From Salibacter halophilus (lineage in GTDB: Bacteria > Bacteroidota > Bacteroidia > Flavobacteriales_G > Salibacteraceae): a DNA stretch of 64,000 nucleotides. The stretch spans positions 372,001-436,000 of the forward strand of contig NZ_WACR01000001.1 of assembly GCF_008806325.1 (NCBI RefSeq), in the 5' to 3' direction. Shown one piece after another: positions 18,189-20,517 of the stretch (positions are counted from its first letter, which is position 1; each line of letters begins with the position of its first letter). Under the pieces are notes generated by a model, which made no database searches, was not told the origin of the DNA, and saw only the letters and a program-made list of their open reading frames with translations. The position numbers and the translations under genes were made by a program.

Positions 18189-19316
18189 ATGTCGAAAAGA
18201 GACTATTACGAAGTATTAGGTGTTTCAAAAGACGCTTCAGACTCTGAATTGAAGAAGGCTTATCGCAAACTCGCGCTCAAATATCACCCCGATAGAAACC
18301 CGGGTGATGAGGAAGCTGAAAACAAGTTTAAAGAAGCGGCTGAAGCGTACGAAGTACTTGGAAATAAAGAAAAACGACAACGATACGATCAATTTGGTCA
18401 TGCCGGTGTTGGTGGAGCTGCCGGAGGCGGTGGCTTTGGCGGTGGCGGTATGAATATGGACGACATATTCAGCCAGTTTGGTGACATCTTTGGCTCTGCC
18501 TTTGGTGGCGGAGGCGGTGGCTTTGGCGGTGGTGGCGGCCGCGCCAGAGCTCGCAAGGGAAGTAACCTGCGCATCAGGGTACAACTCACGCTCGAAGATA
18601 TTGCTCATGGTGTCAAGAAAAAGATCAAAGTCAAAAAGCTTGTCAACGCTCCGGGCAACTCATACAAAACGTGTCCAACCTGTAATGGATCGGGGCGTGT
18701 GACGCGTGTTACCAATACTTTCCTTGGACAAATGCAAACGGCTTCTACCTGCCCTACTTGTGGCGGACAGGGAAAATCGCTCGACAACAAAGCTTCCGGA
18801 TCTGACCAAAACGGACAGTTGCGCAAAGAAGAGGAGCTCGAGATTGAGATTCCACCGGGAGTTGAAGAAGGAATGCAGCTCACTGTTCGCGGAAAGGGTA
18901 ACGAAGCGCCAATGGATGGAATTCCGGGCGATTTACTCATCGTAATTGAAGAGAAAAAGCACGAACATTTAGAGCGTGAAGGTCAGAACCTTCATTACGA
19001 TCTGTTCCTGAACTTTGCCGATTTGGCTCTTGGCGAAACTGCTGAGATACCGACAGTTGATGGAAAAGCAAAAATCAAAATTGCTGCCGGGACAAATGCC
19101 GGAAGAATCTTGAGGTTAAAAGGAAAAGGGTTACCGAGCGTAAATGCTTACGGAAAAGGTGATTTACTGGTGCACGTTAATGTTTGGACGCCTAAAAACC
19201 TCACATCTGAAGAGAAAAAAATACTCGAAAAACTACGCGAATCGGAGAACTTCAAACCCAACCCAACGGGTAAGGAAAAGAGTTTCTTCGGCAGAATGAA
19301 GGAGTATTTTAACTAG
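18189..19316 (+). CDS. dnaJ: Chaperone DnaJ with only one zinc centre
   Basis: A 375-residue DnaJ (Hsp40) that delivers clients to DnaK. The J domain has HPD at residues 33-35, followed by a Gly/Phe-rich region (about 75-120). A canonical DnaJ has four CxxCxGxG repeats. Only two are present: CPTCNGSG (162-169) and CPTCGGQG (188-195), which are repeats 2 and 3 and form zinc centre II. Repeat 1 is replaced by [10 protein letters not shown] and repeat 4 by [11 protein letters not shown]. The C-terminal substrate domains are intact. Two exact copies of the repeated word lie in it (18798, 18981), the first within the lost repeat 4. Confidence 0.95.
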
Positions 19317-19346
19317 GCATTATTCCACTCGTCAATTTTTTGACTT

Positions 19347-19513
19347 AGAACTTGTTTAATGTTGTAGAAAAATTTCGAGCGTAAAGGCTTGTGTTTGCTG
19401 ACGAATCTCCATTTTTCTTGCATAGCCGGAGTGCTACGTAAGAAAAATTAGATGAAGTTCAGCGGACGCAATGTTTTGCGCGCAGTTTTTTATACCAACT
19501 ATAAACAAGTTCT
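19347..19513. repeat. 167-bp nested inverted repeat, MITE-like or structured RNA
   Basis: The two halves of this interval are complementary along almost their whole length. The perfect 12-bp ends are AGAACTTGTTTA (19347-19358) and TAAACAAGTTCT (19502-19513). Inner matched blocks include GCTGA (19397-19401) with TCAGC (19459-19463), TTTTTCTT (19412-19419) with AAGAAAAA (19440-19447), and TAGC (19423-19426) with GCTA (19433-19436). The loop is CGGAGT. Most near-matches in the arms are G-U pairs if transcribed rightward. It has no open frame. It fills most of the gap between dnaJ and the ABC gene. Confidence 0.65.
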
Positions 19514-19535
19514 TTAGAAATATGTACTTAATTTT

Positions 19536-19563
19536 AGCCGCACAATTAAAGTGCGGCTTTTTT
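19536..19563 (+). terminator. Terminator-shaped hairpin abutting the ABC ATPase start
   Basis: AGCCGCAC (19536-19543) pairs perfectly with GTGCGGCT (19551-19558), with a 7-base loop and a run of six T that ends at the ATG (19564). It may terminate transcripts from dnaJ or act as an attenuator for the ABC operon. Confidence 0.75.
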
Positions 19564-20517
19564 ATGGATACACTTTTAGATGTCAAATCAGTAAGTAAGT
19601 GGTATGTCAACTACAAAGCGTTGAACAACGTATCACTTCAGGTTCCCAAAGGCAGTATTTTCGGTTTGTTGGGTCCAAACGGAGCGGGAAAAACCACGCT
19701 CATCAGAATTATCAATCAGATCACAGCTCCCGATGAAGGCGAAATCCTCTTCAATGGTGAATCGCTAAAGCAAAAGCACATTGCGCAAATTGGGTACTTA
19801 CCTGAGGAACGCGGACTCTACAGCAAAATGAAGGTGGGTGAACAAGCACTTTACCTCGCCCAGCTGAAAGGGATGCCCAAAGCTGAAGCGATGGAAAAGC
19901 TGAAAAAGTGGTTCATCAAATTCGGTATTGAGGAATGGTGGAACAAAAAAATTGAGGAGTTATCAAAAGGGATGGCTCAAAAAATCCAGTTCGTGGTAAC
20001 AGTTGTCCATGAACCGGAACTACTCATTTTAGACGAACCATTCTCAGGTTTTGACCCCATCAATACCAACCTCATCAAAGATGAAATCATGAAGCTGCGC
20101 GATAATGGAACAACCGTTATTTTCTCAACTCACAATATGGGTTCAGTAGAAGAAATTTGTGACCGAATTGCATTGATCAATAAATCAGAAAAGATCCTTG
20201 AAGGTCCGGTTGCTGATATCAAAGAGCAACACAAGCCGCACATTTTCAAGCTTACGTTCAAAGGCAATATGATCAAATTCACCAATGCATTGTGGACCGG
20301 CTTTGAGCTTGTCGATCACAAAGAGATTGGCGAAAACACCTTTGAAGCGAAAGTTAAAATCAAAGAAAACAGTACTCCTAACGACTTATTAGGTGCACTC
20401 ATTCCAAATGTGGAAATCCACTCGATGAATGAAATTATGCCAACGATGAACGAAATATTCATCCAACAGGTAACGGGAAAGAACGAAAATGTTGAACTCG
20501 AAAACGAGGAGGCTTAA
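19564..20517 (+). CDS. ABC transporter ATP-binding protein (NatA-like)
   Basis: A 317-residue ATPase of an ABC-2 type exporter. Walker A is GPNGAGKTT, the signature is LSKGMAQK, Walker B is LLILDEPF and the switch histidine is in STHNMGS. An open frame extends to 19471, but those codons run through the terminator hairpin and are not conserved, so MDTLLDVKSVSKWY at 19564 is chosen. About 80 extra C-terminal residues follow the ABC core, typical of the DUF4162-type tail. The partner permease starts 2 bp after its stop. The substrate is unknown; NatAB systems export sodium, but that is not shown here. Confidence 0.93.
   Translation: MDTLLDVKSVSKWYVNYKALNNVSLQVPKGSIFGLLGPNGAGKTTLIRIINQITAPDEGEILFNGESLKQKHIAQIGYLPEERGLYSKMKVGEQALYLAQLKGMPKAEAMEKLKKWFIKFGIEEWWNKKIEELSKGMAQKIQFVVTVVHEPELLILDEPFSGFDPINTNLIKDEIMKLRDNGTTVIFSTHNMGSVEEICDRIALINKSEKILEGPVADIKEQHKPHIFKLTFKGNMIKFTNALWTGFELVDHKEIGENTFEAKVKIKENSTPNDLLGALIPNVEIHSMNEIMPTMNEIFIQQVTGKNENVELENEEA

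Follow-up and report, generated by a model that had tools for sequence, protein, structure and literature searches.

Miniature inverted-repeat transposable elements (MITEs) are commonly viewed as passive leftovers of insertion sequences (IS), each bound to one parent element. TNA targets are a trait of the IS1031 subgroup. In the Proteobacteria, ERIC (127 bp) and NEMIS/Correia (approximately 107 and 155 bp) are small intergenic MITEs with target duplications and long stem-loop transcripts, for which effects on mRNA via RNase cleavage have been reported (PMC2229807, PMC10969869). YPAL, or RU-2, of Yersinia is palindromic and intergenic, has a length of approximately 168 bp and is predicted to form a stem-loop RNA (PMC2229807, PMC2267715). 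The inverted repeats of YPAL lie internally, and the length of its duplications ranges from 3 to 26 bp (PMC2229807). Within the Bacteroidota, MITECca01 of Cardinium is a high-copy element of approximately 240 bp that was derived from an IS982-family element and is confined to one strain (PMC9769881).

Here, we describe an inverted-repeat element from Salibacter halophilus, found in a stretch of 64,000 nucleotides (hereafter the window), together with the family to which it was assigned. The closest known systems are IS5-family elements of the IS1031-like type (DUF4096) and the MITEs derived from them. They are alike in having ends that start with GA and 3-bp, mostly TNA, duplications, and in one genome an 18-nt terminal inverted repeat (TIR) was identical between the two; unlike IS5 elements, the new family has no transposase gene. 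In MITEs that arose by simple internal deletion, a conserved foldback core would not be expected across subfamilies with different ends, whereas the new family has one. ERIC and NEMIS/Correia resemble the new family by their description as hairpin-forming MITEs, but they have 5'-TA-3' termini and belong to another phylum, in contrast to the mostly TNA 3-bp duplications and the class-wide covarying core of the new family. YPAL/RU-2 is of near-equal length and likewise palindromic and intergenic; identity with YPAL was ruled out, as the new family has terminal repeats and fixed 3-bp duplications. MITECca01 shares the phylum and the nature of an IS-derived, high-copy MITE, but differs in its IS982 origin, its length of approximately 240 bp and its restriction to a single strain. 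No published description of the new family was found in the open-access literature, where MITEs of Porphyromonas and Cardinium are known.

The inverted repeat and its locus

The first-pass annotation had placed a 167-bp inverted-repeat element at positions 19347-19513 of the window, with perfectly matching 12-bp ends, arms of approximately 80 bases and a loop of 6 bases, and all of these properties were found again. The terminal inverted repeats were perfect over 11-12 bp. The true boundaries are probably 19348-19512, with the TIR GAACTTGTTTA lying between the 3-bp flanks TTA and TTT (Table 1). As RNA, the plus strand of 19347-19513 folded with -67.6 kcal/mol, compared with a mean of -35.9 kcal/mol for shuffled sequences (z = -8.5; none of 200 shuffles was as good). 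The minus strand folded with -52.4 kcal/mol (z = -7.4). In agreement with the first-pass annotation, no sigma-70-like promoter was found within the element.

Table 1. Positions of the element, its parts and the neighbouring genes in the window
Feature	Position	Strand	Remarks
dnaJ, upstream gene	18189..19316	+	DnaJ domains
Left flank TTA, putative 3-bp target duplication	19345..19347	.	TTA/TTA or TAA/TAA intact in many relatives
Non-autonomous foldback transposable element (very probably an IS5-type MITE), probable boundaries	19348..19512	+ (family sense strand)	Full-length matches with models R3 and R2
Left terminal inverted repeat GAACTTGTTTA	19348..19358	+	Same ends in L016, L017, L018
Central motif, left half, GACGAATCTC; family consensus GACGAGGC	19400..19409	+	
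Apical loop, 6 nt, between arms 19411-19426 and 19433-19448	19427..19432	+	
Central motif, right half, AGATGAAGTTCAG; family consensus AACGAAGTATGG	19450..19462	+	
Right terminal inverted repeat	19502..19512	-	
Right flank TTT, putative decayed duplication partner, one mismatch to TTA	19513..19515	.	
Intrinsic terminator, stem GCCGCAC...GTGCGGC followed by T run, between element and ABC gene	19536..19558	+	
ABC transporter ATPase, downstream gene	19564..20517	+	

The element begins at a distance of 31 bases from the dnaJ stop codon. The terminator AGCCGCACAATTAAAGTGCGGCT and its T run (19536-19566) extend directly into the start codon (ATG) of the ABC ATPase gene. A hairpin with a T run in front of the ABC gene was kept in several relatives (L188, L189, L190, L197 and L199), with differing sequence, and the arrangement looks as if dnaJ termination and the start of the ABC gene were coupled. 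The reading frame of the ABC gene is open upstream (19471-19563), through the terminator and the right arm of the element, as far as position 19471, where there is an ATG in frame; automatic annotation may therefore stretch the ABC protein into the transposon.

Since it lies between the dnaJ stop codon and the terminator, the element would be co-transcribed and would form a long hairpin in the 3'UTR of dnaJ. This position upstream of a terminator, the sense orientation of the plus strand relative to dnaJ and the strong fold would suit a host regulatory RNA or a cis-acting element of the dnaJ 3'UTR. The gene order dnaJ-ABC was common among relatives, with spacers of up to approximately 215 bases, and the element was missing from this site in every relative that had dnaJ followed by the ABC gene; two genomes of the same genus were left out of this comparison, one having another downstream gene and the other a contig end. 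Further copies in the same genome, which had been proposed as a check for a mobile element, were not found: BLAST against the own genome and 60 relatives returned neither a second copy nor a homologue, the copy number thus being 1, and the kin of the element sit in other genomes. The single copy and the element-free spacers of the relatives indicate a lineage-specific insertion and not an old part of a dnaJ operon.

A search of the window against Rfam at gathering scores gave no match. For the elements of the relatives, nothing came near a gathering score, and weak matches of miRNA models to the palindromes were at chance level. The 6S-like RNA considered in the first-pass annotation resembles the element in its predicted rod shape and its size; the lack of an Rfam match and of positional conservation, together with the mobility of the new family, speaks against it. 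As the relatives are moreover dispersed, flanked by 3-bp duplications and unbiased in orientation (see below), we regard a host regulatory RNA of any of these kinds as very improbable.

Relatives in other genomes

A pattern search that required both exact ends at the correct spacing was run on 84,980 genomes. Besides the window element, three foldbacks were found: a Chitinophagales metagenome-assembled genome (MAG; G060) had two and Sinomicrobium pectinilyticum (G061) had one. They were 162-178 bases long and had the same ends as the window element and different arms. Matches to the exact ends in viral contigs were rejected, being either chance matches in phage contigs, where the partner end was lacking, or the palindromic end of a contig. 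The latter, an IMG/VR contig (L041, positions 1-350), begins with a long, near-perfect palindrome that is unrelated to the element and probably is a chimeric assembly or an assembly artefact of the contig end. The family was not matched in plasmid and phage collections.

A covariance model of the exact-end foldbacks, with the window sequence included (R1), matched the Chitinophagales MAG more than 100 times and Sinomicrobium approximately 20 times, these counts including some copies matched on both strands. A second model, also including the window sequence (R2; E ≤ 0.001), had matches in 42 of the 295 genomes sampled from this class, approximately one in seven, which is a lower bound since few candidates were scored per genome. 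R2 also found the window element at full length. Outside the class, matches within the phylum were weak and confined to two genomes. Weak full-length matches with G+C-rich arms occurred in a genome of another class (G238; L316 and others; E = 4.7e-7), and the range of the family may therefore extend beyond the class.

The window sequence was part of both R1 and R2; a third model (R3) was therefore trained on 30 other elements, leaving the window out. R3 found 19347-19513 end to end, with 61.4 bits on the plus strand and 25.2 bits on the minus strand (E = 5.6e-11 for 105 kb). By this sequence comparison, the window element is a member of a widespread, dispersed family. A chance or convergent palindrome outside the family would be in line with the single copy and with the absence of BLAST homologues from the 60 relatives, but it is exceedingly improbable given that the window-free model matched the exact ends and that equal ends and size occur in other members of the phylum.

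The length was nearly constant across the relatives (approximately 160-166 nt). The family consisted of many subfamilies that differed in their ends (e.g., AGAGTATGTTTAAA, AGAGCTTGTTTGGGAT and TGAAGTTGTCTAAAGT), and the length and a directional core were common to all. This shared core reads roughly GACGAGGC ... TTTTG ... CATAGC-GCTACG ... AAAAA ... AACGAAGTATGG. In the genus of the window organism, one genome had three copies of another subfamily, and more copies occurred in its order.

Shorter sequences of 54-78 bases, in which the core is missing and only the two ends with a small hairpin remain, were also observed (L279, L280 and L281 in the Chitinophagales MAG, and L022); these are internal-deletion derivatives of the element. 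The same MAG contained a second recurrent palindromic repeat, which was rich in G+C (CAGCTCCCCCGAGGGAGC... / GGCTTTCAGCC; L028 1537-1600, L025 and L036). The element copy in L028 carried an inserted short, G+C-rich hairpin.

Mobility and the putative transposase

Recent multi-copy insertion with duplication of 3 bp was evident in other genomes. Nine copies in one genome (G627) had a median identity of 95.8%, compared with a flank identity of 25%, and all nine were flanked by perfect TTA/TAA duplications. The copies L016 and L028 were nearly identical, lay at two loci and had different duplications (TTA and TAA). Among 80 copies with intact TIRs, 51 had identical 3-bp flanks, mostly TNA, compared with a mean of 15.2 and a maximum of 26 in 2000 flank shuffles. 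The flanks of the window copy, TTA and TTT, had a one-base mismatch. The TIRs, the R3 match and dispersed relatives with 3-bp duplications strongly support the first-pass suggestion of a miniature inverted-repeat mobile element.

DUF4096 elements of the IS5 family within the phylum had TIRs starting with GA and 3-bp TAA/TTA duplications. One exact match between such an IS and the new family was found. The IS5/DUF4096 element L165 of the Chitinophagales MAG, 935 bp long and with a coding frame broken by stops, had the 18-nt TIR TGAAGTTGTCTAAAGTTT, and exactly this TIR was carried by two MITEs of one subfamily in that MAG, L257 and L276. For those ends in the MAG that had no perfect partner, neighbouring transposase genes were checked and none was obvious. 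The DUF4096 transposase, the sole transposase family searched, had no match in several MITE-rich genomes, which makes the involvement of other transposases likely. It had no match in the genome of the window organism either; together with the mismatch between the flanks, this indicates that the window copy is probably an old, immobile insertion.

In our view, the window element very probably goes back to an old insertion, solitary in its genome, of a MITE moved in trans by IS5-family (IS1031-like, DUF4096) transposases. Such a transposase would bind the inverted ends (GAACTTGTTTA in this case) and cut out the element, which would then insert at a short target rich in A+T, mostly TNA, and duplicate 3 bp of it. 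The window copy, whose duplication is imperfect, would itself have been transposed in this manner, and the enzyme that moved it would have been of the IS5 type and have acted in trans; no transposase of that type was found in its genome.

Strand-specific structure

In an alignment of 34 copies, 47 of the 49 consensus pairs showed changes on both sides with pairing kept. Double-changed cells numbered 385, whereas shuffling gave 130 and sliding of the partners at most 133; these counts include events that are not independent, since the copies are related, and refer to a structure taken from the same alignment. The covariation was spread over all six helices. Its size and spread leave little doubt that the complementarity of the arms, in a rod of approximately 162-166 nt with compensatory changes, was maintained across the family.

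Of 40 diverse copies, 38 had one better-folding strand under RNA parameters, and all 40 did under DNA parameters. The orientation of the copies had been assigned by the model; a test with the motif only agreed in 35 cases, tied in three and disagreed in two. The asymmetry also appeared with DNA parameters and so fits RNA and single-stranded DNA alike. Most of it came from mismatches in internal loops, which were far more often purine-purine (139) than pyrimidine-pyrimidine (26). G-U pairing contributed less clearly. The first-pass annotation had counted approximately five differences to one in favour of G-U pairs on the plus strand, and the direction held for the window element, with eight G-U pairs in the plus fold versus three in the minus fold and four G-U versus one A-C on the family consensus structure. 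Across the family, the bias was weak, as G-U (G-T) versus A-C counts from folds made without G-U were 83:54 and 65:51.

Forty-six of 49 copies did not overlap a crude ORF. The gaps in which copies lay were tandem in 27 cases, divergent in 13 and convergent in eight. Transcription-linked mutation was ruled out as the cause of the asymmetry, since copies in divergent or antisense position were asymmetric too. In tandem gaps, the sense strand ran along the genes 15 times and opposite to them 12 times, and there was thus no sign of an orientation-dependent host function. The RNA structure proposed in the first-pass annotation is therefore borne out with regard to the covarying pairs and the better folding of one strand, but not with regard to a conserved site or a preferred orientation. 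Likewise, the covariation that it had suggested looking for in the same place was found among dispersed relatives, and the dnaJ-ABC spacers of the relatives were without the element.

The principal alternative to a functional hairpin accepts the MITE and concerns only the origin of its complementary arms. These may be kept alike by palindrome homogenisation, through repair templated on the hairpin or renewed formation from IS ends, in which case the covariation would be unrelated to a functional single strand. The arms of a DNA palindrome are able to convert each other, and the weakness of the G-T versus A-C skew, where it was counted without bias, is consistent with such a process. However, homogenisation should remove asymmetric internal loops rather than preserve them, whereas the purine-rich internal loops, the directional central motif and the near-constant length persisted through many subfamilies, and nearly all copies had one better-folding strand. 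We consider homogenisation unlikely as the explanation of the fold. Our best guess is that the conserved fold reflects selection on the single-stranded hairpin of one strand, either an RNA of the element itself or a single-stranded DNA intermediate, over host regulation. Tentatively, and as a possibility that we hold with well under even confidence, the family may constitute a class-wide mobile module, in which the strand-specific hairpin (RNA or single-stranded DNA) is functional and the core was kept while the TIRs were repeatedly swapped for those of different IS5-type transposases.

Biological meaning

Subfamilies with different ends, one length, one directional core and dozens of compensatory changes were found across distant genera of the class, a pattern that bears on the view of MITEs outlined at the beginning. 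The covariance model enables these repeats to be annotated and avoids their being mistaken for host regulatory RNAs. If the hairpin is functional, the family would represent a small non-coding parasite with a selected nucleic-acid structure of its own, which would be testable in genomes that carry 100 copies.
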